In this document: one piece after another, positions 1 to 11,550 of the stretch
How positions within the stretch are numbered: the stretch's first letter is position 1
How the letters are laid out: each line of letters starts with the position of its first letter
Assembly (NCBI GenBank): GCA_025458465.1
Contig: JALOSK010000043.1
Span: 1 to 11,550, forward strand
From: Sandarakinorhabdus sp.
GTDB taxonomy: Bacteria; Pseudomonadota; Alphaproteobacteria; Sphingomonadales; Sphingomonadaceae
Direction: 5' to 3'
DNA length: 11,550 nt
Position numbers and translations under genes: made by a program
The notes under the pieces: generated by a model
Database searches by the model: none
What the model saw: only the letters and a program-made list of their open reading frames with translations
Told to the model about the DNA's origin: nothing

Positions 1-1189
1 ATCACCTGCCACGGCAGGCCGATCAGATCGGCGGTGGCGAACTTGGCGCCGCCGCGTTCATCGCGATCATCATACAGAACATCAACGCCGGCCGCCGCGA
101 AATCGGCATAAAGCTTCTCGCAGGCGGCGCTGCATGCCGCATCATCGGCGCGCAGGTTGATCAGCGCCACCTTGAACGGCGCCACCGCATCCGGCCACAC
201 GATGCCGGCGTCATCGTGGCACGCCTCGATGATGGCGCCCACCAGGCGCGAAACACCGATACCATAGCTGCCCATCAGCGGCGTCACCGGCTGGCCGTCC
301 GGCCCCTGCACCGTCACGCCCATCGCGGCGGTGTACTTGTCACCAAAGTGGAACACCTGCCCCACTTCAATGCCCTTCGATTGCTTGAGCGCCGCGCCGC
401 AGGCGGCCTCTGCCGCCAGATCGCGCTTTTCATCAGTGGCGGCATAATCGGCATTGAGGCCATCGATGAAGGCGCCAAGCGCCCCGGCATCATCGGCATC
501 CACGCCATCCGTATCACGGGGCTTCAGCCAGTTCTCGTGATAGAACACGTCGCTCTCGCCCGTGGGGGCCAGCACGATGAATTCGTGGGACAGGTCACCA
601 CCGATGGGCCCGGTATCGGCCTGCATCGGGATGGCATTCAGGGCATATAGGCGATGAACATCCGGTTATAGCTGTGCACCGCCCCGGCATAATCGACGTC
701 GAAGCTGTAGGCGTCCTTCATCAGGAATTCGCGGCCGCGCAGCACGCCAAAGCGCGGGCGCACTTCATCGCGGAACTTCCACTGGATCTGATAGAGGTTG
801 CGCGGCAGATCGCGATAGCTGCGCGCGCCATTCTGGAAGATGGCGGTGAACAATTCCTCAGCGGTGGGGCTGAACAGCATCTCGCGATCATGGCGATCGG
901 TGATGCGCAGCATTTCCGGGCCATAGGCATCATAACGGCCGGACTGGCGCCACAGATCGGCGCTCTGGATGGTGGGCATCAGCACTTCGATGGCGCCGGC
1001 GCGGTCCTGTTCCTCGCGCACGATGCGCTCGATGTTGGCCAGCACGCGCTTGCCCAGCGGCAGCCAGGCATAGATGCCCGCCGCCGTCTGCCGGATCATC
1101 GCGGCGCGCAGCATCAACTGGTGGGAAATCACCTGGGCTTCGCCGGGCGTTTCCTTCAACACGGGCATGAAATAGCGGGACAGGCGCAC
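1..1189 (-). pseudogene. proS: Prolyl-tRNA synthetase ProS, frame broken and 3' end outside window
   Basis: ProS is the cytoplasmic class II synthetase that charges tRNA-Pro with proline using ATP. The N-terminal part starts at a GTG (1189-1187) with a GAAGAG-type Shine-Dalgarno about 10 bases upstream. It gives the family opening [13 protein letters not shown], motif 1 context ([10 protein letters not shown]) and motif 2 ([10 protein letters not shown], then [12 protein letters not shown]), and then hits TGA at 640-638 after residue 183. The protein resumes at once in the -1 frame from 641: [21 protein letters not shown], and later motif 3 ([13 protein letters not shown]) and the start of the anticodon-binding domain, with no stop down to base 1. 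Compared with the family, about six residues (the RTFARMG region) are missing between AYM and LNAIP, which fits a loss of 19 bases. About 35 C-terminal residues lie outside. The high conservation of both halves of an essential gene makes a recent deletion or an assembly error more likely than an old pseudogene. Confidence 0.85.
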
Positions 1190-1270
1190 GTTGGTATCTC
1201 TTCACTGGCAAGGATGAACGCGGCCTTAGCATGGCTGGAGCGCAGCACAACAGAGCCATCCGAAGCACCC

Positions 1271-1288
1271 TGTTGCAAGGCTGCAACA
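1271..1288. repeat. Inverted repeat upstream of proS (possible operator or weak hairpin)
   Basis: A perfect 7-bp dyad, TGTTGCA-AGGC-TGCAACA, lies 82 bases upstream of the proS start. On the plus strand it is followed by a five-T run (1290-1294). It could be a repressor site for the minus-strand proS promoter or a weak plus-strand terminator. The stem is AT-containing and short, so a protein-binding site seems somewhat more likely. No regulator can be named from sequence alone. Confidence 0.3.
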
Positions 1289-1342
1289 GTTTTTCGATTC
1301 ATCACGCGATTGCCGTCGCAACCGCCTGACAGCGCCACGGAT

Positions 1343-1348
1343 TTGACA
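1343..1348 (+). promoter_or_regulatory. Consensus -35 box (TTGACA), candidate promoter into the 1.2-1.66 kb gap
   Basis: The hexamer TTGACA is a perfect sigma-70 -35 element. No good -10 box follows at 16-18 bases (CTTCGG at the 17-base position), so the promoter call rests on the -35 only. It points into the structured stretch that ends at the hairpin at 1556-1583, and it would give a start near 1375-1380. Confidence 0.22.
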
Positions 1349-1377
1349 TATCACAGCGCTTCGAACTTCGGCGCCTG

Positions 1378-1587
1378 CGCCGCAGGTTCGGGGAGAATGG
1401 CAACGGTGAATTTCACTGGGCGTCGTCTCCACCGTGGCGCGCCGGCCTTCGGGTCTGGCTGCGCGCGCCGGTCAGGGCAGATGGGGGCATTGGCCCTGGC
1501 CGGCGCTGGTGGTGGACGATACCCGGCGGGAATCGCCATCAGTCTCGTCACGGGCAGGCCCGGCCACGCAACTGGCCGGGCCTTCTT
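1378..1587 (+). ncRNA. Candidate structured small RNA or 5' leader between proS and the hydratase gene
   Basis: This stretch has no convincing protein gene; the open frame through it is Arg/Ser-rich and unlike any family N-terminus. On the plus strand it can fold into consecutive hairpins. The first is at 1392-1430 (GGAGA/TCTCC closing, with GTGAA-T-TTCAC inside). The second, at 1436-1469, is strong and capped by a TTCG tetraloop. The third pairs CAGGGC with GCCCTG, and GGCG/CGCC forms another. The run ends in the 10-bp hairpin at 1556-1583. A TTGACA box lies about 30 bases upstream of the presumed 5' end, which is an estimate. It could be an independent sRNA or an attenuator leader for the downstream hydratase-transporter pair. 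GC-rich DNA forms hairpins easily, and I do not recognise 4.5S, 6S, tmRNA, RNase P or a known riboswitch here. Confidence 0.25.
1556..1587 (+). terminator. Rho-independent terminator-like hairpin upstream of the enoyl-CoA hydratase gene
   Basis: A perfect 10-bp stem, AGGCCCGGCC (1556-1565) with GGCCGGGCCT (1574-1583), has an 8-base loop and is followed by TCTTG. The tail is T-rich only on the plus strand. It ends 74 bases before the hydratase start, with no plus-strand gene upstream for it to serve. It therefore implies either a short untranslated transcript or a leader attenuator. Confidence 0.45.
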
Positions 1588-1661
1588 GCGTTCCCCCCTG
1601 CTTTCATCAGTCCGCCCAGCCGTCGCCCGCATGGCAGAACCGGCGCAAGGGAGGACAGGAT

Positions 1662-2444
1662 ATGGCTTTTGAACATGTGACGGTGGCCACCGAAGGCCGG
1701 GTGCTGGTGGTGACCATCAACCGGCCGGAACGCATGAACGCGCTGCACCCGCCGGCCAATGCCGAACTGGATGCCGTGTTCAACGATTTCGCCGCCAACC
1801 CCGATCTGTGGGTGGCCATCATCACCGGCGCCGGGGATCGCGCCTTCAGCGCCGGCAACGATCTGCGCTGGCAGGCCGAAGGCAACGCCATCACCGTGCC
1901 GCCCTCGGGCTTTGGCGGGCTCACAAGCCGCTGGGATCTCGACAAGCCGGTGATCGCTGCCGTGAACGGTGTTGCCATGGGGGGCGGCTTCGAAGTGGCG
2001 TTGGCGGCCGACATCATCATCGCGTCCGAAACCGCCAGCTTTGCCCTGCCCGAACCCAAGGTGGGCCTGGCTGCACTGGCCGGCGGGCTGCATCGGCTGC
2101 CGCGCGCCATCGGGCTGTCGCGCGCCATGGCCATGATCCTCACCGCGCGCACGGTTTCGGCCGCCGAAGGCCGCGATCTGGGTTTCGTGGCCGAAGTGGT
2201 GCCGGCCGCCGATCTGCTCGCCCGCGCCCGCGTACTGGCCGCCGCCATGTGCGAGCTCTCGCCGCTGTCGCTGCGCGCCTCCAAGCAAGCCGTGCTCAAG
2301 GGGCTTGAAGAACCCTCGCTGCGCGCCGCCTATGAAGGCCAGGGCACATACACGGCCGTGCAGGCGCTGTTCCGCAGCGAGGATCTGCGCGAAGGCCCGC
2401 TGGCCTTCGCGCAAAAGCGCAAGCCGGAGTGGAAGGGTCGCTAG
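1662..2444 (+). CDS. Enoyl-CoA hydratase/isomerase family protein (crotonase fold, CaiD-like)
   Basis: This is a 260-residue crotonase, the usual length. Such enzymes hydrate enoyl-CoA thioesters in the cytoplasm. The ATG at 1662 follows AGGGAGGA (1648-1655) by six bases; the frame is open further upstream but encodes no family sequence. Visible features are N20-R-P22, the oxyanion-hole segment FSAGNDL (62-68), MGGGFEVALAAD (106-117) and FALPEPKVG (127-135). E111 and E131 are spaced 20 apart and match the two catalytic glutamates of rat enoyl-CoA hydratase, so hydratase activity is plausible. The C-terminus (EGPLAFAQKRKPEWKGR) and the internal GGFGGL-like stretch resemble E. coli CaiD (crotonobetainyl-CoA hydratase) more than fatty-acid hydratases. 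The transporter gene begins 62 bases downstream on the same strand, which suggests an operon for uptake and use of a carboxylic acid. The substrate is unknown; a carnitine link is not shown because no CaiB/CaiC partner is present. Confidence 0.9.
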   Translation: MAFEHVTVATEGRVLVVTINRPERMNALHPPANAELDAVFNDFAANPDLWVAIITGAGDRAFSAGNDLRWQAEGNAITVPPSGFGGLTSRWDLDKPVIAAVNGVAMGGGFEVALAADIIIASETASFALPEPKVGLAALAGGLHRLPRAIGLSRAMAMILTARTVSAAEGRDLGFVAEVVPAADLLARARVLAAAMCELSPLSLRASKQAVLKGLEEPSLRAAYEGQGTYTAVQALFRSEDLREGPLAFAQKRKPEWKGR

Positions 2445-2506
2445 GGCGCCCCCTGCGTCAATCAACCCTTTGACCGGGCCGCAGCGAACGGGCAGCGGCG
2501 CCGGCC

Positions 2507-4072
2507 ATGGGGGCTGAACCACTTGCACGCATCACGGCGCCGGCCGATTTCGATCGCTGGCTGGTGCCGCCATGCGCGCTCGCCATCCACCTGTGCATCG
2601 GCATGGCCTACGGCTTTTCGGTCTTCTGGCTGCCGCTCACCCACGCCATCGGCGTATCGGGCAGCGTCGCCTGCGATGGCCTGTCGCTCACCGGCGCGCT
2701 CACCACCACCAGCTGCGACTGGCGGGTGAGCGATCTGGTCTGGGTCTATACCTTGTTCTTCGTCGTGCTCGGGCTGGCCGCCGCGCTGTTTGGTGGCTGG
2801 GTGGAACGGGTGGGCCCGCGCCGTTCCGGCCTGGTGGCGGCGGCCTGCTGGTGCGGCGGCCTGGCCATCGGTGCGCTGGGCGTCGCGGTGCACCAACTAT
2901 GGCTGCTGTGGCTGGGCGCCGGCGTGATTGGCGGCATCGGGCTGGGCATCGGCTATATCACGCCGGTGTCCACCCTGATCAAATGGTTCCCGGATCGGCG
3001 CGGGCTGGCCACCGGCATGGCGATCATGGGCTTTGGTGGCGGCGCCATGGTGGGCAGCCCGCTGGCCGATCGGCTGATGGCGGCCTTCGCCGGGCCAGAC
3101 AGCGTGGGCGTGTGGCAGACGATGCTGCTTCTGGCCGGACTGCATGCCCTGTTCATGGCGGCCGGCGCGCTGGGCTTCCGCGTACCGGCGCCGGGCTGGG
3201 CGCCCCCCGGCAAGGCACAGGTGATTGCCGGCGGCCGCTTCGTGCCGCTGGGCACGGCCACGCGCACGCCACAATTCTGGCTGGTGTGGTGCGTGCTGCT
3301 GCTCAACGTGTCGGCCTCCATCGGCATCATCGGCCTTGCCTCCCCGATGATCCAGGAAATGTTCGGCGGGCGGCTGATCGGCACCCCAGGCATTGCCTTC
3401 GAAGCCTTCGACGAAAAACAGAAAGCCGCCGCTGCAGCCGTAGGCGCCGCGTTTGTCGGCCTGATCAGCCTGTTCAACATCGCCGGGCGATTCTTCTGGT
3501 CCAGCCTGTCGGATCGGATCGGGCGAAAGGCCCTCTATCTGTTCATTCTCGGGCTGGGCGCTGCCTGTTATGGCGTTGCCTTGCCCGGCCCGGCGGCGGG
3601 TTCGCTGGCGCTGTTCCTCGCCTGCTTTGCGCTGATTGCCTCGATGTATGGCGGTGGTTTTGCGGCCATGCCCGCCTGGCTGGCCGATCTGTTCGGCACT
3701 GCGCAGGTGGGCGCCATCCACGGCCGGCTGCTCACCGCATGGTCCACCGCCGGCATACTGGGGCCGCTGCTGGTGGCCTATGTGCGCGATGCCCGGCTGG
3801 CCGGTGGGGCGGCACGCGCCAATCTCTATGATCCGATCTTCCTGCTGCTGGCCGGGTTGCTGGTGGCAGGGCTGGTGGCGGCGCTGCTGGTGCGCCCGGT
3901 GTCAGAACAATTGTGGCAGGCGGCGCCCGATGCCGATGTGATGCCCGTTGACCTGGCAACCACGGTCCGCACGCGCCCGGCCCTGCGCGTGGCGGCATGG
4001 AGCGCGGTGGTGCTGCCGCTGGCCTGGGGCGGCGGCTTCACGCTGCAGAAGGCCGCGCTGCTGCTGCAATGA
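2507..4072 (+). CDS. OFA-family MFS transporter (oxalate/formate antiporter type) with C-terminal extra helix
   Basis: This inner-membrane major facilitator protein has 521 residues. OFA members exchange or import small carboxylates. The sequence shows 12 core hydrophobic segments from about residue 19, a motif-A-like loop GGWVERVGPRRSG (96-108) between helices 2 and 3, and the OFA hallmark stretch YGGGFAAMPAWLADLFG followed by AIHGRLLTAWSTAG. The loop after helix 1 is long and holds C56 and C70, a possible periplasmic disulfide. After helix 12 there is a polar linker and a thirteenth hydrophobic segment (VLPLAWGGGFTLQKAALLLQ). This resembles the separate 'MFS transporter small subunit' peptides that, as I recall, accompany some OFA transporters, so it may be a fusion. 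The ATG at 2507 lacks a clear Shine-Dalgarno, and the next in-frame ATG would remove helix 1. It probably shares a transcript with the upstream hydratase. The substrate cannot be told from sequence. Confidence 0.85.
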   Translation: MGAEPLARITAPADFDRWLVPPCALAIHLCIGMAYGFSVFWLPLTHAIGVSGSVACDGLSLTGALTTTSCDWRVSDLVWVYTLFFVVLGLAAALFGGWVERVGPRRSGLVAAACWCGGLAIGALGVAVHQLWLLWLGAGVIGGIGLGIGYITPVSTLIKWFPDRRGLATGMAIMGFGGGAMVGSPLADRLMAAFAGPDSVGVWQTMLLLAGLHALFMAAGALGFRVPAPGWAPPGKAQVIAGGRFVPLGTATRTPQFWLVWCVLLLNVSASIGIIGLASPMIQEMFGGRLIGTPGIAFEAFDEKQKAAAAAVGAAFVGLISLFNIAGRFFWSSLSDRIGRKALYLFILGLGAACYGVALPGPAAGSLALFLACFALIASMYGGGFAAMPAWLADLFGTAQVGAIHGRLLTAWSTAGILGPLLVAYVRDARLAGGAARANLYDPIFLLLAGLLVAGLVAALLVRPVSEQLWQAAPDADVMPVDLATTVRTRPALRVAAWSAVVLPLAWGGGFTLQKAALLLQ

Positions 4073-4085
4073 AGGGCGCGCCCGA

Positions 4086-4118
4086 ATGAAAGGGGCCGCC
4101 GGTTCCCCGGCGACCCCC
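4086..4118 (-). terminator. Terminator of the minus-strand mini-gene (may also block the transporter transcript)
   Basis: On the minus strand GGGG-T-CGCCGG, loop GGAA, CCGGCG-G-CCCC forms an 11-bp stem-loop with one mismatch (4092-4117), followed by TTTCATTC. The T-rich tail is only on the minus side, so it best ends a transcript carrying the 21-codon ORF at 4159-4224. The stem also lies 20 bases after the transporter stop codon and could stall plus-strand transcription. A second hairpin (CGGCT-CACGAA-AGCCG, 4131-4146) lies between the ORF stop and the terminator. Confidence 0.55.
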
Positions 4119-4158
4119 AAACATTGTCATCGGCTCACGAAAGCCGGTGTCTGGTGTA

Positions 4159-4224
4159 TCAGCAAACCACGACCTTGACCGTGGGCACCAGCGCCAACGT
4201 GGCCTTGATGAAGCAATGAGACAC
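4159..4224 (-). CDS. Candidate 21-residue small protein with a perfect Shine-Dalgarno
   Basis: The ORF starts at GTG (4224-4222) and stops at TGA (4161-4159). The peptide begins MSHCFIK, has a hydrophobic middle (ATLALVP) and ends VKVVVC, with cysteines at positions 4 and 21. The case for a real gene is its surroundings. The sequence AAAGGAGGTGATCC, fully complementary to the 16S rRNA 3' end, is placed so that seven bases separate GGAGG from GTG. A 17-bp hairpin encloses this site, and a terminator lies about 40 bases after the stop. I do not recognise the peptide. It could be a small membrane or exported peptide, a leader peptide, or an accidental ORF within a structured RNA. No neighbour on its strand explains it; the flanking genes run the opposite way. 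Confidence 0.45.
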   Translation of the reverse strand: MSHCFIKATLALVPTVKVVVC

Positions 4225-4267
4225 TGGATCACCTCCTTTCGTCTTGTGGAACAAGAAAGCCAGTGTC
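4220..4267 (-). promoter_or_regulatory. Structured leader enclosing the Shine-Dalgarno and start codon of the small ORF
   Basis: Read as minus-strand RNA, GACACUGG-CUUU-CUUGU, loop UCC, then ACAAG-(ACG)-AAAG-(GAGGUGAU)-CCAGUGUC. All 17 pairs are Watson-Crick. The two bulges, ACG and the Shine-Dalgarno core GAGGUGAU, are on one side only. The start codon GUG (4224-4222) lies inside the closing 8-bp stem, so translation would require this stem to open. That architecture is what an RNA thermometer or ligand-controlled translation switch would need. The fold is read by eye; no energy was computed. Confidence 0.45.
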
Positions 4268-4280
4268 AGGGCATTCGGCC

Positions 4281-4949
4281 ATGATCGCAAGTGGCATTAT
4301 CGCGCAGCTGCGCATCGGAACGCCGCAGCCGCTGGCCGGCGTTCGCCTGCCGTCGGCCTATTGGCGCCAATCGGTGGCCGGCCCGATTGCGGTGGGCGAA
4401 CTGGGCCTTGCGGGGGACCGGGTGGGCAATACAAAGGTCCACGGTGGTCCGGAAAAGGCCGTTTATGCCTATCCGCTTTCGGGCCATGCCGCGTGGGCGC
4501 GTGATTTTCCCGCCATCGCGGATCGCCTCGGGCCGGGCGCCATGGGCGAGAATCTGGTGGTGGACGGGCTTGATGAAGCCAGCGTGCATCTGGGCGACAT
4601 CATTCGCTGTGGCACCGCCACGCTTCAGGTGGCGCAGATCCGCGAGCCCTGCTCCACCCTTGCCGCCGCGCTCGGCACGCCGGCCGTGGTGAAGGCGATG
4701 GTGAAAAGCGGGCGCTGCGGCTGGTATTGTCGTGTGCTGGAAGCGGGTGAGATCGCCGCCGGCGATGCCCACGAGGTGATCGAACGGCCCAACCCGGCCT
4801 GGCCCATCAACCGCTTCACGCCAATTGCGGCGGGCACGGCGGGCACGCAGGGTGAACTGGCCGAACTGGCCGAACTGGCCGGCCTCAGTGCGTACTGGCG
4901 GTTGAAGCTGGCCCGCCGCCTGCAAGAGCAGCAGCGCGCGCTGACTTGA
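4281..4949 (+). CDS. MOSC domain protein, YiiM-like
   Basis: The protein has 222 residues and is collinear with E. coli YiiM. It has a beta-rich MOSC domain and then a C-terminal helical '3-alpha' region. Visible family marks are LGLAGD (41-46), KVHGGPEKAVYAYP (52-65), WARDFP (72-77), MGENL (88-92), the GDI(I/F)R turn (105-109) and the conserved MOSC cysteine, C124, in REPC. YiiM proteins use a molybdenum cofactor bound near this cysteine and reduce N-hydroxylated compounds such as 6-hydroxylaminopurine; the same activity here is inferred. The ATG at 4281 fits the family length. An in-frame GTG at 4263 is possible but lies in the leader hairpin of the opposite-strand mini-gene. Neither start has a strong Shine-Dalgarno. 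Near the C-terminus a triple 9-bp repeat encodes ELA three times. The last 65 bases overlap the end of the gene on the other strand. Confidence 0.85.
   Translation: MIASGIIAQLRIGTPQPLAGVRLPSAYWRQSVAGPIAVGELGLAGDRVGNTKVHGGPEKAVYAYPLSGHAAWARDFPAIADRLGPGAMGENLVVDGLDEASVHLGDIIRCGTATLQVAQIREPCSTLAAALGTPAVVKAMVKSGRCGWYCRVLEAGEIAAGDAHEVIERPNPAWPINRFTPIAAGTAGTQGELAELAELAGLSAYWRLKLARRLQEQQRALT
4296..4301 (-). promoter_or_regulatory. Possible -10 box for the minus-strand mini-gene
   Basis: GATAAT on the minus strand (five of six matches to TATAAT) lies inside the first codons of the MOSC gene, about 29 bases upstream of the structured leader. No good -35 is seen 16-18 bases further upstream, so support is weak. 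It is listed because the mini-gene needs a promoter and this is the only AT-rich hexamer correctly placed. Confidence 0.2.
4854..4880 (+). repeat. Three tandem copies of a 9-bp unit inside the MOSC gene
   Basis: The unit GAACTGGCC occurs three times in a row without change and keeps the frame (Glu-Leu-Ala x3) in the C-terminal helical region. It ends four bases before the stop codon of the converging membrane-protein gene (4885-4887). Unit gain or loss would lengthen or shorten one helix by three residues without breaking the frame. Confidence 0.85.
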
Positions 4950-5949
4950 GGGCGCGGGCTTCGAGCACGGCGATAAGGCCAGCGCCCAGCGCGAACGGGA
5001 TGAAGGTGTACAAGAGGCGGAACAGCGCCACCGCGGCAAGCACGCCGGCCTTGTCCGCCTCTGGCATCAGACCAACGATAACAAGTTCGAACACGCCCAG
5101 CCCGCCCGGCGCATGGGCGAGCGCGCCGGTCACCATGGCCACGGCATAGATGACAAGGAAGGTCAGCAGATCGGGAATGCCCGCCACCGGCAACAGCAGG
5201 ATGTAGAGCGCGCCGCCGGCCAGCGCGAGATCGATGGTGCCGATGGCGATCTGCTGCAGGGTTTCCTTGCCGTTGGGCAAGGCGAAGCGATAGCGCCAGA
5301 TGCGCAGATCGCCACGCCAGAGGCTGGCGATGATGGTGTAGAGCACGACGCCTGCCAGCAGGAGCACGCCGGTCCATTCCTCCAGCCCGGATGGGACCCA
5401 GGCGCGGATCGGCTCGGCCAGGCCTGGCGACACGATCAGGCCGATGCCGGCCACGAAAATGATGCCCAGCCAGAAGGTCCAGCCACACAGCAGGATGATC
5501 ATCGCGATGTCGACAGGCTTCACCCCTTCACGGGTGTAGATGCGATAGCGCACCGTGCCGCCCGTCAGCACCGTCAGGCCCAGCGTGTGGCTCATCGTGA
5601 AGCTGGAGAAGCTGGCCGCCGCCAGAGTCGGCCAGCGGATATGGTTGTAGCCAAGATGCCGCGTGGCGAACCAGTCATAGCCGACCAGCACGACATAGGA
5701 CAGGAAGGTGGACACCGCTGCCGCCACGATCAGGTGGGTGGGCGTCGCCTCGATCTCGGCCAGCACGTCGGCCAGCGTCACCTGGCCGGAAATCTTCTTC
5801 AGGCCCCAGGCGGCAAGGCCAAGCACGACCAGACCGAGCAGGGCGCCGATCCAGGTTTTCCAGTTGGCCTTTGGCTTGGGCGTCAACACCGCCGTTTCTG
5901 CCGTGGCCTCGTTCGCTGAAACGCCCAGAACCAGTTCCTCCAACCACAC
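4885..5949 (-). CDS. Lysylphosphatidylglycerol synthase TM-region protein (YbhN/MprF flippase-like, UPF0104)
   Basis: This is an integral membrane protein of about 350 residues with roughly eight hydrophobic segments and no C-terminal aminoacyl-transferase domain. It therefore corresponds only to the flippase half of MprF. Family marks are the loop HTLGLTVLTGGTVRYRIY and the signature GALAHAPGGLGVFE in the last third. Relatives move lipids across the inner membrane or modulate such steps; the lipid here is unknown. The start is uncertain. The longest frame begins at TTG 5979, inside the tRNA gene, and gives the typical tRNA read-through tail (MGVRIPPGPP), so I reject it. GTG 5949 is the first usual codon past the tRNA and is used here. 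The only good Shine-Dalgarno (GGAGGA, 5941-5936) would instead suit a CTG at 5928 (347 residues). The gene follows the tRNA closely and is probably transcribed with it. Its 3' end overlaps the MOSC gene by 65 bases. Confidence 0.85.
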   Translation of the reverse strand: MWLEELVLGVSANEATAETAVLTPKPKANWKTWIGALLGLVVLGLAAWGLKKISGQVTLADVLAEIEATPTHLIVAAAVSTFLSYVVLVGYDWFATRHLGYNHIRWPTLAAASFSSFTMSHTLGLTVLTGGTVRYRIYTREGVKPVDIAMIILLCGWTFWLGIIFVAGIGLIVSPGLAEPIRAWVPSGLEEWTGVLLLAGVVLYTIIASLWRGDLRIWRYRFALPNGKETLQQIAIGTIDLALAGGALYILLLPVAGIPDLLTFLVIYAVAMVTGALAHAPGGLGVFELVIVGLMPEADKAGVLAAVALFRLLYTFIPFALGAGLIAVLEARALKSARAAALAGGGPASTASTH

Positions 5950-5952
5950 CGG

Positions 5953-6025
5953 TGGGCCCGGAGGGATTCGAACCCCCAACCTAGCCGTTATGAGCGGCCA
6001 GCTCTAACCGTTGAGCTACAGGCCC
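5953..6025 (-). tRNA. trnI: tRNA with CAT anticodon, best read as tRNA-Ile2 (lysidine-modified, reads AUA)
   Basis: All 73 positions fold cleanly. The acceptor stem is GGGCCTG/CGGGCCC (one G-U), the D stem GCTC/GAGC and the anticodon stem GGCCG/CGGCT. The loop is CTCATAA, the variable loop AGGTT, the T stem GGGGG/CCCTC with TTCGAAT, and A is the discriminator. G1-C72 pairing excludes the initiator. C4-G69 and C5-G68 are the pairs known to let E. coli TilS recognise tRNA-Ile2 rather than elongator tRNA-Met. That, and the resemblance to alphaproteobacterial Ile-CAT genes, favours Ile2; elongator Met remains possible. The CCA end is not encoded (the next bases are CCG), so the nucleotidyltransferase must finish it. 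It is the first element of a unit with the membrane-protein gene downstream. Confidence 0.93.
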
Positions 6026-6134
6026 TCACCGGGTGGCCTGCGGTTAACCCATGGCACGGCAGATGGGAAGGCCGATGCGTCATTGCGAGACGGCGGCTGG
6101 TCGCACTTTCAAAAGTATCAGGCTGAAAAGGATG

Positions 6135-6167
6135 AAGGGCCGGATGCGGGGAACGCATCCGGCCCTT
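6135..6167 (-). terminator. Strong terminator hairpin between lysR and the tRNA
   Basis: A perfect 14-bp stem, AAGGGCCGGATGCG / CGCATCCGGCCCTT, has a 5-base loop. On the minus strand it is followed by CATCCTTTTC, which gives the better tail. It would end transcripts coming from trxB-lysR (lysR stops 311 bases upstream on the same strand) and insulate the tRNA. The plus strand has no gene needing it. Confidence 0.6.
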
Positions 6168-6477
6168 GATCTACACCCGGTGGCGCCGGGGGGGAGGTGG
6201 CGCAGTTCCGGGTCGGCGGGCCGCACCAAGGGAGGGGAGGAGCGGTGGGCCCAAGCCGGCCGGGCGGGCTGCAGGGAGGGGGAGGAGAGCAGCAGGCCCG
6301 GCGTTGCCGCATATCGCGGCGACCCGGTTGATTTAGGCCACCACCCGGCGGTTGTGCAGTGCAATATCAGGCGAAGCTGCTATGCATTTTTTGCATGGCG
6401 AGACGTACCCCTCCCCTGCAAGCCACTGTTTTCGTGACGTTATGACGACCGCCGACCATCCCCTGCGACAGGCTGCC
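6168..6477. other. Gene-free stretch downstream of lysR
   Basis: I see no supportable gene here; the plus-strand frame across it has an Arg/Gly-rich composition without family features. The stretch holds a purine-rich plus strand with many G runs (6190-6290), a G-quadruplex motif (6262-6282) and a small inverted repeat, ATGCA-TTTTT-TGCAT (6382-6396). A direct TGACG repeat with an 8-base period lies at 6435-6447. On the minus strand it is the 3' untranslated part of the trxB-lysR transcript, up to the terminator at 6135-6167. Confidence 0.5.
6262..6282 (+). other. Canonical G-quadruplex motif
   Basis: Four G runs (6262-6264, 6266-6268, 6274-6276, 6278-6282) are separated by loops of 1, 5 and 1 bases, matching the G3+N1-7 rule. 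It lies on the non-transcribed strand of the lysR 3' region, where it could form in DNA during transcription and slow polymerase. Other G-rich runs flank it. GC-rich genomes contain many such motifs, so function is unproven. Confidence 0.5.
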
Positions 6478-7389
6478 TCAGATGTCGAGCGCGGCGTCCG
6501 TCATGCGGTCCACCAGAAAATCGCGCAACGCCGCAATCCGCAGCGACCGCCGCATCTCCACCGGATAGGTGAAGAAGGTGCGAAACACCGGGCCTTCCAC
6601 CTGTGGCAGCACCACCTGCACCTTGCCGGAATAACGGATGAGATAGGACGGCAGCGCGGCGATTCCGGCCCCCGATTCCACCGCCTGCAACACCCCGTGA
6701 CTGTTGTTGATGGTAAGCGCGGCCTGCCGGGGATTGCCTTCGTGGCCAAGTTCCAGAATCCAGTTGATGCCCTTCAGGAAATCGGGCGCGGCATCGCCAT
6801 AGGCGATCAGCCGGTGCCGATCGAGATCGGCAACGCTCTGCGGGGCGCCGTGGCGGGCCAGATATTCGGGGCTGGCCACCAGGTGATGGCGGATGTTTGC
6901 CAACGGGCGCTGCATCAGCTCGCTCTGGAACGGGCGGTGGAAGCGGATGGCGACATCGGCCTCGCGCTTGGCCAGATCAAGATCGGTATCGACCAGCATC
7001 AGGTGCACGCTGATGTCGGGATAGAGATCGAGGAAATCGCCCAACTGGCGCGCCAGCCAGGTGGAACCGAAGGAAACGGTGGTGGTGAGGCGAATGGCGC
7101 CGGTGGGCCGGTCACGACTGGCATCGATGGCCTGCGCGGCCTTGTCGATGCGCTCGTGCATGTCAGCGGTCGCGGCGCGCAGCTGCTCACCCTCGTGCGT
7201 CATGGCAAGGCCGCGGGCATGGCGATGGAACAGCTTGGCGCCCAGGCTTTCTTCCAGCGCGGCAATCTGGCGGGACAGCGCCGGCTGGCTCATGTGCAGG
7301 CGGCGCGCCGCCTCGGTGAAGCTGCCGGCTTCGGCCACCGTGTCAAACAGGCGCAGCTTTTCCCAATCGAGATTGATGCCCGCTTGCAA
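6478..7389 (-). CDS. LysR-family transcriptional regulator
   Basis: The length, 303 residues, is normal for the family. The N-terminal winged helix-turn-helix is clear: LFDTVAEAGSFTEAARRL (14-31) then HMSQPALSRQIAALEESLG (32-50) and LFHR (53-56). A coiled linker follows, then a periplasmic-binding-protein-like effector domain from about residue 92 to 300. The TTG start (7389) has GGGGAGAGG just upstream; no ATG lies before the recognition helix. It starts 15 bases after the trxB stop, on the same strand, so the two are almost certainly one transcript. Its target and effector are unknown. LysR proteins usually control a divergent neighbour, but here the divergent gene is an Lrp-type regulator 1.1 kb away across trxB. 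It could act on the trxB promoter or on distant genes. Confidence 0.92.
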   Translation of the reverse strand: MQAGINLDWEKLRLFDTVAEAGSFTEAARRLHMSQPALSRQIAALEESLGAKLFHRHARGLAMTHEGEQLRAATADMHERIDKAAQAIDASRDRPTGAIRLTTTVSFGSTWLARQLGDFLDLYPDISVHLMLVDTDLDLAKREADVAIRFHRPFQSELMQRPLANIRHHLVASPEYLARHGAPQSVADLDRHRLIAYGDAAPDFLKGINWILELGHEGNPRQAALTINNSHGVLQAVESGAGIAALPSYLIRYSGKVQVVLPQVEGPVFRTFFTYPVEMRRSLRIAALRDFLVDRMTDAALDI

Positions 7390-7404
7390 GCGCCCTCTCC
7401 CCGC

Positions 7405-8337
7405 TTATCCGTGGGCCAGGAAACGTTCCGCTTCCAGCGCCGCCATGCAGCCCATGCCGGCAGCCGTCACTGCCTGACGATATAATTTGTCCTTCACGTC
7501 ACCGGCGGCGAACACGCCCGGCACGCTGGTGGCCGTGCTGTCAGGTGCGGTGATGATGTAGCCTTCGTCGTCCATGTGCAACTGGCCGGCGAACAACTGC
7601 GTGGCCGGAACATGGCCGATGGCGACGAACAGGCCGTCGGCCGGAAGATGCCGGCTGCTGCCGTCGCGGGTGTCCTTCAGGGTGACGCCTTCCACCTTCA
7701 GCGGCGCATCGCTGCCGTGCACCTCGGCCACTTCGCTGTGCCAGTGCATCACCACCTTGGGGTTTTCCAGCAGACGGGCCTGGTTGGTCTTGTCGGCGCG
7801 CAGCTCGCCGCGGCGGTGCACAAGATGCACCTTCGATGCGAACTTGGTGAGGAACATCGCCTCCTCCACCGCCGTATTGCCGCCGCCCACCACCACGACG
7901 TCCTTGCCGCGGAAGAAGAAGCCATCGCAGGTGGCGCAGGCTGATACGCCGAAACCACGGAACTTCGTTTCGCTCTCCAGCCCCAGCCAGCGGGCCTGCG
8001 CGCCGGTGGCGATCACCAGCGTGTCGGCCGTCCAGCCCTGGCCGCTGTCGGTCTCCAGCACGAAGGGCCGCTGCGACAGGTCCACCTTCGTCACGATATC
8101 AGTGATGATCTCGGTGCCGACATGTTTGGCCTGCGCCTCCATCTTCACCATCAGATCGGGGCCCATCACCATGGTCTCGCCGGGCCAGTTCTCCACCTCG
8201 GTGGTGATGGTCAACTGGCCGCCCGGCTGCAGGCCCTGCAGCAGCACCGGCGCCAGCATGGCCCGCGCGGCATAGACCGCCGCGGTGTAACCGGCCGGGC
8301 CGGAACCGATGATGAGAAGCTTGGCATGACGGGACAT
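7405..8337 (-). CDS. trxB: Thioredoxin reductase (NADPH)
   Basis: This is a low-molecular-weight flavoprotein of 310 residues, close to the usual 310-320. It passes electrons from NADPH through FAD and a redox disulfide to thioredoxin in the cytoplasm. The features run in order: FAD-binding GSGPAG (11-16), ATGA near 110-113, the active-site CATC (C134, C137), NADPH-binding GGGNTA (151-156) with the following HRR (phosphate-binding arginines), and C-terminal VFAAGDV, which closes on FAD. The CxxC plus HRR argue for true TrxB rather than ferredoxin-NADP reductase. The ATG start (8337) has AGGAG 10 bases upstream. It is the first gene of trxB-lysR and diverges from an Lrp/AsnC gene across 182 bases. 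Confidence 0.95.
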
Positions 8338-8519
8338 GAACGCGAATCTCCTGCTGGCCGGTCCATGCCGGCGGATGTGGCGCCTGACTTAAGCCAATTC
8401 GCGCGCATTTCCAGCCTGACACGCAAGCTTGCCGCAACCGCGCCCGCACCAACCCGCATCTTGCGCATATGTGAAACAATGTTATCAGGAATCGGCCTGC
8501 AAGAGATTGGGAGTTGCCC
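8338..8519. promoter_or_regulatory. Divergent regulatory region between trxB and the Lrp/AsnC gene
   Basis: This 182-base gap must hold both outward promoters. The plus side has an AT-rich island (about 8464-8490, around ATATGTGAAACAATGTTAT), 30-55 bases before the Lrp start. That is a natural place for its promoter and for autoregulatory Lrp binding. A small GCCGG-TCCATG-CCGGC inverted repeat lies near the trxB side. No promoter pair matches consensus well enough to call. Confidence 0.4.
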
Positions 8520-8999
8520 GTGGTCCACCGTTCGCGCCTGCCGATCGATGATATCGATCGCGTCATCCTGCGCCATCTGCAGGCCGAAGGGCGCATCACC
8601 AATGTCGATCTCGCCAATCGTGCCGGCCTCACCGCCCCGCCCTGCCTGCGCCGCGTGCGCGCGCTGGAGGAAAACGGCACGATCCGCGGCTATCACGCCG
8701 ATCTCGATGCCGCCGCGCTGGGCTATGGCATCACCGTGTTCGCCATGGTCAGCCTGAAAAGCCAGGCCGAAGCCGATCTGAAGGCGTTCGAGGATCATGT
8801 CTCCGCCCTGCCCCAGATCCGCGAATGCCACATGCTGAACGGGGAGATCGATTTCATCCTGAAGGTGGTCGCCCACGATCTGCAGGAGTTTCAGAAGTTC
8901 CTGACCAGCGAATTGACCCCGGCGCCCAACGTGGAAAGCGTGAAGACCAGCTTCGTCATCCGCACCGCCCTGCAAAGGCCGGGCGTGCCAGTGGATTAG
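8520..8999 (+). CDS. Lrp/AsnC-family transcriptional regulator
   Basis: The protein has 159 residues, a typical size. It has an N-terminal helix-turn-helix (DDIDRVILRHLQAEGRITN, 10-28, then LANRAGLTAPPCLRRVRALE, 31-50, with the family CLRRVR core) and the linker IRGYHADLD. A C-terminal RAM ligand-binding and oligomerisation domain follows (VFAMVSLK through SVKTSFVIRTAL). Family members bind amino acids and form octamers that wrap DNA. The start chosen is GTG 8520, six bases after GGGAG (8509-8513); the TTG at 8514 directly abuts that site. It is divergent from trxB. Its stop is nine bases from the stop of the converging rhomboid gene, so there is no room for separate terminators. The ligand is unknown. 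Confidence 0.93.
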   Translation: MVHRSRLPIDDIDRVILRHLQAEGRITNVDLANRAGLTAPPCLRRVRALEENGTIRGYHADLDAAALGYGITVFAMVSLKSQAEADLKAFEDHVSALPQIRECHMLNGEIDFILKVVAHDLQEFQKFLTSELTPAPNVESVKTSFVIRTALQRPGVPVD

Positions 9000-9008
9000 G
9001 GCGGTCGA

Positions 9009-9668
9009 TCAACCGCGCAGTGCCGCCCTTGCCAGCGGCCGCGCCAGTGCCAGGCCGGCGATGAAGCCGCCGATATGGGCCATGATGGCGATCCTGAGGT
9101 CAGGCCCGGCCAGCGCGGCGCCGGCCAGCACCTGCAGAACCACCCAGGCCACAGCCAGCCCCAGCGCCTGAAGCAATGGGCTGCGCTTCGATTGGCCGAA
9201 CAGCATGGCCTGCGCCGCCACCAGGCCGGAAATGGCGCCGGATGCGCCAACGGCGGGCGCGGCACTCATCGGCGCCCACAGCCATTCTGCAATGCCGCCG
9301 CCAAGGCCGGACAGGATGTAAAGCAGCAGGAAGCGCTTGGCGCCCAGCACCGGCTCCAGCAGCCGGCCGATGGCCAGCAGCATCACCATGTTCATCACCA
9401 GGTGCAGCGCGCCGCCGTGCAGGAACATGTGCCCGAACAGGGTGGACAGCGCGCTGCCCAGCGCCATCTGGCCATCGAAGGCCAGCGTGAGCCGCAGCGG
9501 CACCAGCCCGCCCCAGAACACCAGGATCTGCCGCACCTGCTCACCCGCCAGGCCCATCAGGATCGCGATGATGGCATTGACCAGCACCAGCGACCGTGTG
9601 ACCGTTGGCGGATCGACCAGCGTCGTCACCGGCGGATCGCCGGCAGGCAGAGGCTCAGATGAACTCAA
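9009..9668 (-). CDS. Rhomboid-family intramembrane serine protease
   Basis: This is a 219-residue membrane protein with about six helices, the basic bacterial rhomboid core. The catalytic serine is S143 in GASGAISG and the partner histidine is H198 in [11 protein letters not shown]89 and N93 in HLVMNMV supply the helix-2 oxyanion residues. All expected catalytic positions are therefore present and the enzyme should be active. It cuts membrane proteins within or near their transmembrane segments; the substrates are unknown. The TTG start at 9668 lies inside the last codons of greA (14-base overlap), which suggests translational coupling. An in-frame GTG at 9629 is an alternative that would trim 13 residues of a low-complexity tail. 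No strong Shine-Dalgarno supports either. It converges with the Lrp gene, with a 9-base gap. Confidence 0.92.
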
Positions 9669-10134
9669 CGCGCTCGATCAGGTAGAATTTGTCGCCCGAC
9701 GGGGTGTGGACTTCCACCTCGTCGTCCTTGCGGCGGCCGATCAGCGCCTTGCCCAGCGGCGAGGAGAAGCTGATGCGGCCTTCGCGCACATTGGCCTCGT
9801 GCTGGCCGACAATCTGGTATTTCACCGGCTTGTCGTCTTCATCAAGCAGGTGGACGGTGGCGCCGAACACCACCTTGTCGCCCGAAAGTGTCTTGGGATC
9901 GATCACGACGGCGCGGGCCAGCATGTCTTCCAGTTCGATCACCTGGGCCTCGATCTGGCCCTGGCGTTCCTTGGCGGCGTGATATTCGGCATTTTCCGAA
10001 AGATCGCCGTGGGCGCGGGCTTCCTCGATGGCTTCCACCACCGCCGGACGCTCCACTTCCTTCAGGTTGCGCAACTGCACCAGCAGGGCTTCATGCCCGG
10101 TTGGCAGCATCGGCACCTTGTCAACCGTCGCCAT
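9655..10134 (-). CDS. greA: Transcription elongation factor GreA
   Basis: GreA has 159 residues (158 in E. coli). It enters the RNA polymerase secondary channel and triggers cleavage of backtracked RNA. The N-terminal coiled coil spans about residues 10-75, with the acidic tip D44 and E47 in [17 protein letters not shown]. The C-terminal FKBP-like domain follows, with the conserved [17 protein letters not shown] strand. The frame extends upstream to 10209, but that part overlaps the carB terminator and is not family sequence. The ATG at 10134 gives the standard MATV start, with GGAAG about 10 bases upstream. It lies downstream of carB on the same strand behind a terminator, and its end overlaps the rhomboid start. 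Confidence 0.95.
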
Positions 10135-10162
10135 GATCGCACGCACTTCCATAAGCTTCGTT

Positions 10163-10174
10163 GCAAATATTTGC
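10163..10174. promoter_or_regulatory. 12-bp perfect palindrome upstream of greA
   Basis: GCAAATATTTGC is a perfect self-complementary site, 29 bases upstream of the greA start. It shares four bases with the foot of the carB terminator stem. It is the only AT-rich stretch of the intergenic region, so it may be part of the greA promoter or a dimeric regulator site. Part of its symmetry comes from the terminator foot. Confidence 0.3.
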
Positions 10175-10209
10175 CCCTGAAGGCCCATTGCTGTGGCCTT
10201 CAGGGGCAA
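10171..10209 (-). terminator. carB terminator/attenuator
   Basis: A perfect 15-bp stem, TTGCCCCTGAAGGCC with GGCCTTCAGGGGCAA, and a 9-base loop lie 21 bases after the carB stop. On the minus strand ATATTTGC follows, a short AT-rich tail. It separates carB from greA and probably allows partial read-through, since greA begins only about 36 bases later. Confidence 0.65.
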
Positions 10210-10230
10210 GACTGCGGGCCTGTGTGCCCG

Positions 10231-11550
10231 TCAGGATTGCTGATGATAGGATTGAAGCGGCCGAACTTCAAGCGTGCGGCGCCGCAGTGCAGCAATCGCC
10301 GCCACTGCCGCCCGGCTGGCCGGGGCCGTGGTGTAGTAAGGCACGCGGCCATACAGCGCCGATGCCCGGATGGACTGGCTGTCCTTCAGCGATTGCAGAC
10401 CTTCGGTGGTGTTGAAGATCAGGGCGATGCCGCCATCCTTGATGCGATCAACGATGTGCGGCCGACCTTCGGCCACCTTGTTGACCCGCGTCACCGGGAT
10501 GCCGGCGGCTTCCAGCGCCGATGCCGTGCCGCTGGTGGCCACCAGCGCAAAGCCCATGCCCACCAGATCGCGCGCCGCGTCCATCATCTGCGGCTTGTCG
10601 CTGTCCTTCACGCTGATGAACACTGCGCCTTCACGGGGCAGCGTGGTGAAGGCGGCGAGCTGGCTCTTGGCAAAGGCGATGGCAAAATCGGTATCGATGC
10701 CCATCACTTCGCCGGTGGACTTCATTTCGGGGCCCAGCACCGGATCGACACCGGGGAAGCGCGCGAACGGGAACACGGCTTCCTTCACGGCGATATGCTG
10801 GCCAACGTTGCGCGGCGAAAGATCAAAGGTCGCCAGCTTCTCGCCAGCCATCACGCGCGCGGCAATCTTGGCCACCGGAATGCCCGTGGCCTTGGCGGTG
10901 AACGGCACCGTGCGGCTGGCGCGCGGGTTCACCTCGATCAGATAGACATCAAGCTGTTCAGGGTCGGGCTGGCGCCCTGAGGCCTTCACCGCGAACTGCA
11001 CGTTCATCAGGCCCTTCACCTTCAGGGCGCGGGCCAGAACGGCGGTCTGCCGCTCGATCTCGGCAATGATGTCGGCGGGCAGGCTGTAGGGCGGCAACGA
11101 GCAGGCGCTGTCGCCCGAATGCACGCCTGCCTCCTCGATATGCTGCAGCACGCCGGCGACATGCACGGTGTCGCCATCGGCCACGGCGTCCACGTCCACC
11201 TCGATGGCGTCGCGCAGATAACGATCGATCAGCACCGGCGAGGTGCCCGACACCACCACCGCCTCACGGATATAGGTTTCCAGCTGGGCGCGGGTATCGA
11301 CAATCTCCATCGCGCGGCCACCCAGAACATAGGACGGGCGCATCAGCACCGGATAGCCGATGGTCTCGGCCACGTTGACCGCTTCCTCGGCGCTGCGGGC
11401 GATGCCGTTTTCCGGTTGGCGAAGGCCAAGCTCGGTGATCAGCGCGGCAAAGCGCTCACGGTCTTCGGCCAGATCGATGCTGTCCGGGCTGGTGCCCAGG
11501 ATGGGGATGCCGGCATCCTGCAGCGCCTGCGCCAGTTTCAGCGGGGTCTG
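10231..11550 (-). CDS. carB: Carbamoyl-phosphate synthase large subunit CarB, C-terminal part
   Basis: The last 439 residues are present; the N-terminal part (CarB is about 1,070-1,110 residues) lies beyond the right edge. With CarA it makes carbamoyl phosphate from glutamine-derived ammonia, bicarbonate and ATP for arginine and pyrimidine synthesis. The window enters at [10 protein letters not shown], followed by [18 protein letters not shown]. The second ATP-grasp domain follows, with [20 protein letters not shown] and the metal-binding [12 protein letters not shown]. The C-terminal MGS-like allosteric domain comes last, with [27 protein letters not shown] and IFNTTEG. In other bacteria this domain binds UMP, IMP or ornithine. 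The frame is open to the window edge with no defect. The order carB-greA is common in alphaproteobacteria. Confidence 0.97.

Follow-up and report, generated by a model that had tools for sequence, protein, structure and literature searches.

A CC2171-related RNA of Sandarakinorhabdus sp. combines an extended Shine-Dalgarno sequence with a short, probably translated reading frame

We analyzed a stretch of 11,550 nucleotides (nt) of DNA from Sandarakinorhabdus sp. (assembly GCA_025458465.1, contig JALOSK010000043.1, positions 1 to 11,550), referred to as the window. Its minus strand carries an RNA mini-gene in the gap between a convergent MFS transporter gene and a divergent MOSC-domain gene. 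Judged by its covariance alignment, the RNA is a diverged relative of the catalogued RNA family CC2171 (Rfam RF01867), filed as a small RNA of Caulobacter. It very probably contains a translated open reading frame (ORF) under selection. As the best overall explanation we favor, with moderate confidence, a free-standing small mRNA or dual-function RNA that has an intrinsic terminator and a long-range fold under the control of ribosomes.

Comparison of related loci shows that a near-complete complement of the 16S ribosomal RNA (rRNA) tail is kept before the start codon at a nearly fixed spacing, and that the frame is kept open over about 18–30 codons though the peptide barely resists amino-acid change. 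It also shows that the first codons pair, compensatory changes included, with the stretch beside the terminator, and that no downstream gene is common to the lineages. The original prediction, made from the letters of the window, had proposed that a translated mini-gene lies on an RNA equipped with a promoter and a terminator of its own, and had named conservation of ORF and structure in relatives as its test. The comparative data support this proposal, with ORF length and a long-range helix both kept.

An extended Shine-Dalgarno sequence complementary to the 16S rRNA tail

The ORF is preceded by the extended Shine-Dalgarno (SD) sequence GAAAGGAGGTGATCCAG. In two genomes of the same genus (L248 and L249) the 16S rRNA gene ends in ...GCGGCTGGATCACCTCCTTTCTAAGG and its tail reads CTGGATCACCTCCTTTC. 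The window RNA is therefore complementary to it over 17 nt, which we take to cover almost all of the single-stranded tail that follows helix 45. A 14-base SD fully matching the 16S 3' end had been predicted originally; the match stands, its length was understated. No 16S tail is seen in the window's own assembly, and its sole match to GGATCACCTCCTTTC is the mini-gene locus itself. The predicted energy of the SD:16S duplex is -31.0 kcal/mol, compared to -9.2 kcal/mol for AGGAGG. The GGAGGTGAT-anchored sites of 120 related loci (885,619 nt) include 120 with a 17-nt match, all of them the elements themselves, and the next best reaches 13 nt. These loci had been collected with an exact pattern in which the motif is included, so the informative part is that other long matches are missing. 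The 17-nt match is beyond chance.

Conservation was followed in 115 loci found by the Rfam model and placed loosely by GGAGG or GAAGG (from 125 loci given, 8 set aside and 2 merged); the model itself favors the consensus. Most positions of GAAAGGAGGTG.TC are conserved in 93–100% of these loci, and 98 of the 115 can form a run of 15–17 consecutive pairs with the 16S tail, G-U pairs allowed. The main substitution in the GATCC block (GTGRTC position), A to G in 24 loci, preserves a G-U pair, and so does an A to G change directly before the start codon (34 loci). The start base itself is A in 55 loci, and this A does not pair with the 16S tail. The start codon follows GGAGG after 7 nt in 108 loci and after 6 nt in three; the remaining four were mis-anchored by the script. 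The conservation figures of the pattern-derived sets (167 loci, 84 of 385 genomes) are biased upward, because parts of the SD were already prescribed by the search pattern and the regular expressions.

Two loci (L184 and L232, from genomes G438 and G407) have the full-length SD in front of ORFs of 55 and 56 codons. These ORFs resemble, by eye, small signal-peptide proteins and are real exceptions to the short length. The SD module was possibly recruited by, or from, an ordinary gene.

A reading frame conserved in length

In the window the frame starts with GTG (4224–4222), runs over codons 4224–4162 and is closed by TGA (4161–4159); the GTG start and the 21-codon minus-strand ORF of the original prediction are thus read directly. 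An ORF of 18–30 codons occurs in 162 of 174 non-redundant loci and in 20% of shuffles; all ORF-length shuffles preserved base composition only. The other two frames are open over 18–30 codons in only 27 and 33 of the 174 loci. Start codons are exchanged (GTG 121, ATG 47, TTG 6; in the 24 same-genus loci GTG 17, ATG 7) and all three stop codons are used (TGA 94, TAA 46, TAG 34). An earlier set of 167 loci gave 20–28 codons in 95.8%, compared to 13.1% in shuffles. Of the 115 loci found by the Rfam model, 109 carry an ORF of 14–36 codons (shuffles 36%); of the six misses, four were mis-anchored by the script (L017, L162, L215 and L235) and two are the longer ORFs of L184 and L232. A 14-codon ORF, shorter than elsewhere, is seen in L192 (Rhodopseudomonas rhenobacensis), L090 (Microvirga pudoricolor) and L061.

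Amino-acid constraint was estimated as the ratio of non-synonymous to synonymous change (pN/pS). From codon 5 to the end of the ORF, independent pairs of the first set gave 0.76 (0.62–0.93), and a larger set gave 0.72 with one divergence limit and 0.87 with another; from codon 14 to the end the larger set gave 0.63 or 0.75, again by divergence limit. Together with 0.87 or 1.10 for codons 5–13, these values make a function of the peptide doubtful. By this comparison, ORF length is much better conserved than amino-acid sequence. Gap runs within the ORF are multiples of three in 15 of 150 cases, a figure that is uninformative because pairwise gap placement is arbitrary.

The same data bear on a small-protein gene, in which a peptide of 18–36 residues would be the product and RNA structure would merely tune translation. 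The length-bounded ORF with genuine exchange of starts and stops is what such a gene would have. Peptides were compared in 242 loci (L180 and L247–L255, which are second copies and 16S loci, were excluded beforehand and identical loci merged; a further 17 were rejected, 10 without the motif, 6 too short and 1 with a low score). They begin with MS in 239 and with MSHC in 155 of these loci. In close pairs, pN/pS for codons 14 to the end is 0.63 (95% confidence interval 0.47–0.81), with 1.08 and 0.99 for the other frames. EQP recurs near the C-terminal end, and its codons exchange synonymously (GAG/GAA, CAG/CAA). On the other hand, codons 5–13 show no amino-acid constraint, and the peptides of different lineages (MSHC.., MSHGS.., MSSE.., MSTHQG..) are dissimilar by eye beyond MS. 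The wobble base before the Trp codon is C in 106 of 119 cases, compared to 727 of 2086 (35%) elsewhere, so that the apparent peptide motif is partly an RNA constraint. A type I toxin-antitoxin system would combine a hydrophobic, usually membrane-spanning peptide with an antisense RNA; the median grand average of hydropathy of the 242 peptides is 0.04. The cysteines at positions 4 and 21 noted in the original prediction are both present in the window peptide, but Cys21 is not kept in the genus. The new small protein suggested there is only weakly supported, amino-acid constraint being slight, and we regard a gene kept for its peptide as possible but doubtful. As a separate observation, EQP near the C-terminal end is frequent in peptides starting with MSS or MSN (L179, L185, L189, L206, L213, L231, L295 and others).

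Long-range pairing and termination

Codons 2–13 are predicted to pair with a stretch of about 32 nt in front of the terminator. Over 165 non-redundant loci the mean z-score of this pairing is -2.97 relative to dinucleotide shuffles, with z below -1.65 in 79% of the loci; codons 14–25, used as a control against the same stretch, gave a z of +0.07. The two strands differ among lineages as matched pairs: CATTGTC/GACAATG, CATGGTTCAGC/GCTGACCATG and AATGAGAT/ATCTCAT. In 38 of 42 sequence classes the 5' strand scores better with its own 3' partner than with swapped partners (Wilcoxon p = 7e-7, which is optimistic because the classes are not independent by descent). For the window RNA, folding z-scores are -2.6 (4290–4086) and -3.3 (4256–4086), and the minimum free energy (MFE) fold of 4290–4086 contains the long-range helix.

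The terminator with a T-rich tail put forward originally holds as far as its hairpin is concerned, which is strong and GC-rich; the tail is weak. A strict scanner called neither a promoter nor a terminator on the window RNA. The stop codon lies at least 17 nt 5' of the terminator in 222 of the 222 loci in which a terminator was found; the finder searched downstream of the stop only and returned none in 20 of the 242 loci. The position of the stop near the 3' strand of the helix is partly forced by the way the regions were cut and was hence not used.

Table 1. Position and supporting evidence of the features in the window.
Feature	Position	Strand	Evidence
Extended SD	4224–4240	-	17 nt complementary to the 16S rRNA 3' tail
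ORF, 21 codons, GTG start, TGA stop, peptide MSHCFIKATLALVPTVKVVVC	4159–4224	-	18–30 codons in 162/174 loci
Long-range helix, 5' strand (codons 3–13; P1 CATTG 4218–4214)	4187–4218	-	L005 duplex prediction, compensatory test
Long-range helix, 3' strand (P1 partner CAATG 4126–4122), directly 5' of the terminator	4122–4149	-	Duplex prediction, compensatory test
Intrinsic terminator: GC hairpin 4118–4092 and TTTCATT tail	4085–4118	-	Hairpin finder, folds; strict scan negative
RF01867 (CC2171) match, full length	4091–4248	-	64.2 bits, gathering score 75
-35-like TTGCGA, within the first codons of the divergent MOSC gene	4285–4290	-	TTGN in 24/24 same-genus loci
-10-like GACACT (in TGACACT)	4262–4267	-	YGACRYT in 24/24 same-genus loci
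MFS transporter gene, convergent, 3' of the RNA	2507–4072	+	Pfam PF07690, E 6.7e-28
MOSC-domain gene, divergent; ATG probably 4281, open from 4263	4281–4949	+	Pfam PF03473, E 1.6e-31

Promoter and 5' region

All 24 same-genus loci contain a TTGN and a YGACRYT box with a spacing of 15–19 nt. Class-wide, CTTG is found at -75 to -46 in 102 of 205 non-redundant upstream regions, compared to 14 for the reversed word. From these boxes we infer a transcription start near 4255 and a short 5' untranslated region; the promoter may be of the RpoH or the RpoD type. The -10 element assigned in the original prediction, GATAAT (4301–4296), was rejected on conservation, being present within 95 nt in 2 of the 24 same-genus loci only. 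The 17-bp leader hairpin proposed next to it fared no better: its eight outer pairs are complete in 4 of the 24 loci, and its 5' arm GACACTGG (4267–4260) is the YGACRYT box. Since this arm coincides with the -10 region, the hairpin is probably untranscribed, and we rejected it. A switch-controlled gene as drawn around that hairpin is likewise unsupported; what is conserved instead is the long-range helix that joins the beginning of the ORF to the pre-terminator stretch. No conserved 5' aptamer was found, and no Rfam riboswitch is among the matches of the window up to an E-value of 1.

Relationship to CC2171 and distribution

The match of the window RNA to RF01867 has an E-value of 1.2e-11 and scores below the gathering threshold, so we describe the RNA as a relative and do not file it as a member. 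The alignment is untruncated (model positions 1–159) and includes the conserved 5' block, the long-range stem and the terminator hairpin. Matches over the cut-off occur in two genomes of the same taxonomic family. With strict filters RF01867 is found in 35 of 60 relatives, namely in all 24 genomes of the genus and in 11 of 12 from other genera of the family. It is present in 85 of 385 genomes of the class Alphaproteobacteria. Among the positive genomes, the loci of G285 and G298 were left out, and those of G297 and G366 entered only via the later pattern search. Weak RF01867 matches fetched by position contain the motif or a close variant in 58 of 66 cases.

A 20-nt core pattern, AAAGGAGGTGRTCNNDTGTC, matches 84 of the 385 genomes. 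A sample of the phylum was positive in 50 of its 86 alphaproteobacterial genomes and in none of the 213 from other Pseudomonadota (this split was counted by hand from the table); the reversed pattern, used as a control, gave no match in the class set or the phylum sample. An exact scan of named genomes yielded at least 120 stretches, from Rhizobiales, Acetobacteraceae, Rhodospirillales, Caulobacterales and Sphingomonadales. Each pattern-positive genome in the 385-genome table has one copy, except G071 with two. G071 belongs to the window's family, and its copies L170 and L214 are of different subtypes (MSHC.. and MSHGS..); paralogues with different peptides can thus coexist in one genome. One record titled Ramlibacter (L092), a metagenome bin, also has the element; elsewhere only alphaproteobacterial samples are positive. 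Ramlibacter is a betaproteobacterial genus. Because the record is a metagenome bin, L092 is possibly a mis-binned contig or contamination; transfer is the other possibility.

Genomic context

The divergent MOSC gene is common to 20 same-genus loci and the convergent downstream MFS gene to 11. Over all lineages, the largest flanking protein cluster covers 20 of 138 loci with flanks, and the RNA is therefore not tied to one neighbor. This survey tabulated the 22 largest clusters and listed 14 in full. Most of the large clusters stay inside a single genus or a set of close relatives. A cluster of 18 loci, periplasmic-binding-protein-like, unites Bosea-like loci, where the gene is on the opposite strand, with six Acetobacteraceae loci. 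In these six (L065, L082, L084, L100, L146 and L147, from several genera) the RNA lies 3' of a co-oriented gene whose product resembles a periplasmic amino-acid-binding protein. The biggest co-oriented downstream cluster comprises 12 of the 138 loci, every one Bosea-like.

The least credible explanation can be dismissed at this point: a leader peptide or attenuator would fit a short ORF followed by structure and a terminator, and a co-oriented downstream gene is present in the 12 Bosea-like loci, but the next gene in the window is convergent, no co-oriented downstream cluster is larger than these 12, and no downstream gene is common to the lineages, so we rejected it. A plasmid-borne element was also rejected: neither the window RNA nor L175, the two sequences used as queries, matched any of 72,556 plasmid records; phage records were outside the search.

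Elsewhere on the minus strand of the window, hairpins at 6121–6198 give a sub-threshold match to RF00236 (ctRNA_pGA1; 30 bits, cut-off 45), near a tRNA gene at 5953–6025 on the same strand.

Proposed mechanism

Based on these comparisons we propose the following sequence of events. During synthesis of the RNA, a 30S subunit captured by the extended SD would load. The translating ribosome would open the 5' strand of the long-range helix, clear it within about 20 codons and halt without reaching the 3' strand or the terminator. Behind the ribosome the helix could then close and hide codons 2–13. Two forms of the RNA would result, one open and translated, the other closed and untranslated, with ribosome loading deciding between them. 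In the cell, these forms might act through the peptide, through RNA lifetime, by pairing with a target or by holding 30S subunits. Given a trailing footprint of 12–15 nt, a ribosome has to translate about 18 codons to clear the 5' strand. In this model, a frame long enough to clear the 5' strand and short enough to spare the 3' strand would explain why length is kept without sequence. We put forward only tentatively that the ribosome-gated fold is the main function. A further-reaching idea is a little more doubtful still: selection would preserve translation of a short, fixed-length frame as such, and not the peptide, and this widespread alphaproteobacterial RNA would be a switch that reads 30S loading through its full complement of the 16S tail and responds by opening or closing the helix. 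The peptide may be secondary.

Several observations weigh against this interpretation. The likely transcript, 4256–4086, has an MFE fold without the CAUUG:CAAUG helix that favors a local hairpin over the start codon. The predicted accessibility of the SD is only moderate (mean unpaired probability 0.39). Transcription and translation of the window RNA are predictions from comparison, and pN/pS is 0.63–0.87 for codons 14 or 5 to the end and 0.87–1.1 for codons 5–13. With strict filters RF01867 is found in 0 of 24 genomes from other families of the same order, and the exact core pattern is absent from 301 of the 385 genomes of the class. In addition, Schrader et al. (2014, PMC4117421) reported from ribosome profiling that non-coding RNA regions of Caulobacter crescentus are untranslated, a general statement that does not name this RNA.

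Alternative explanations

Apart from the small-protein gene treated above, the RNA might bind the 16S tail for its own sake. The 17-nt complement would then mainly hold or sense 30S subunits, as a decoy or a meter of free 30S, and the ORF would serve to release bound ribosomes. The complement does span nearly the whole tail, and its main substitution retains G-U pairing. In addition, 67 of the 102 non-redundant RNAs that contain GATCCAG have CTGGA, an echo of the 16S tail, near nt 40 of their ORF (shuffles 7.7%; examples of the loci analyzed are L044 and L143), compared to 5 of the 72 remaining RNAs (shuffles 5.8%). This co-occurrence, however, is lineage-confounded, and the window ORF carries CTGG only; for these two reasons, pairing of the SD spacer with CTGGA was not adopted as a general mechanism. 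Titration of ribosomes by a single-copy gene would need very high expression, and the spacing between SD and start looks like productive initiation. We consider this function unlikely.

The anti-SD small RNAs (sRNAs) SmelA075 and SmelA099 go by the name 'cuckoo', and the RNA of the window could be a sponge for sRNAs of this type that display CCUCC loops, a role which CrfA plays towards SisA-D in Caulobacter. Its GGAGGUG could pair with the CCUCCUCCC loops known from Rhizobiales (PMC3927594), and the pairing motif of SisA-D, which CrfA sponges, bears an anti-SD signature (PMC12559287). No such CCUCCUCCC-type loop was found in the RNA itself, the minus strand from 4330 to 4050 containing GGAGG and no CCTCC. 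A sponge is improbable in our view, since conservation reaches past the complement of CCUCC into GAAA..GAUCC and the length-bounded ORF is left unexplained.

Taken at face value, the Rfam type 'Gene; sRNA' would mean an ordinary non-coding sRNA with a chance ORF, in line with the general profiling statement for C. crescentus (PMC4117421); in that study an RNA was called non-coding where no coding sequence (CDS) was detected. The distribution of ORF lengths, which is unlike that of shuffles, together with the exchange of start codons and the use of three stop codons makes this very improbable.

Significance

What is new in the ribosome-gated small mRNA or dual-function RNA that we favor is that an RNA family already known, yet unexplained, is read as coding and as linked to the ribosome. 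This character seems to be undescribed in the texts searched: the titles and abstracts found on CC2171 contain no description of an ORF or a function. The family is tabulated among those whose structures were improved (PMC11701678). A homologue of RF01867 is transcribed in Mesorhizobium huakuii, where the locus MH_s33 gave a 215-nt sequencing product; it is not marked there as one of the RNAs selected for Northern blots (PMC5596092).

If our reading is true, an RNA family filed as sRNA would in fact be translated in many alphaproteobacteria. Searches that require peptide conservation, measured as the ratio of non-synonymous to synonymous substitution rates (dN/dS), or AUG starts would then tend to miss such genes. 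The coding-sRNA prediction of Friedman et al. (2017, PMC5521070), for example, used AUG starts only and had dN/dS among its features. The extended SD makes ribosome-sensing directly testable, e.g. in C. crescentus or Methylobacterium. It may also bear on the question why SD-poor bacteria such as C. crescentus, in which just 24.6% of CDSs have an SD (PMC4117421), retain one transcript bearing a near-complete complement of the 16S tail.

Comparison with known systems

The closest known system is CC2171 itself. The window RNA shares with it the full-length covariance match, the block GAAAGGAGGUGAUCCAGUGUCUCAUUG, the long-range stem and the terminator; it differs in that Rfam classifies the family as sRNA and the texts found on it mention no ORF. 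Dual-function sRNAs and small mRNAs include SgrS-SgrT, SR1 and RNAIII. With these and with Pos19 of Rhodobacter the RNA has in common an sRNA-like gene with its own promoter, a short ORF and a terminator. A dual-function sRNA would in addition regulate separately by base pairing. In contrast to dual-function sRNAs, ORF length is here conserved more than peptide sequence, the SD complements nearly the whole 16S tail, and the gene is spread across much of a class.

The case of rpsU in Flavobacterium shows that a particular transcript can be set apart for a special ribosome state by its extended SD (PMC9976891), and extended SD pairing is in broad use in Staphylococcus aureus (PMC13009471). The rpsU mRNA of Flavobacteriales resembles the window RNA as a single transcript with an exceptionally strong, extended SD, and its translation is decided by ribosome state; rpsU, however, encodes the ribosomal protein bS21, whereas the window RNA encodes a 21-codon peptide (PMC9976891). 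Finally, the anti-SD sRNAs SmelA075/A099 and the SisA-D/CrfA system are, like this RNA, alphaproteobacterial sRNAs built on SD/anti-SD pairing. They use motifs of the CCUCC type, whereas the window RNA has the complement of such motifs together with an ORF.

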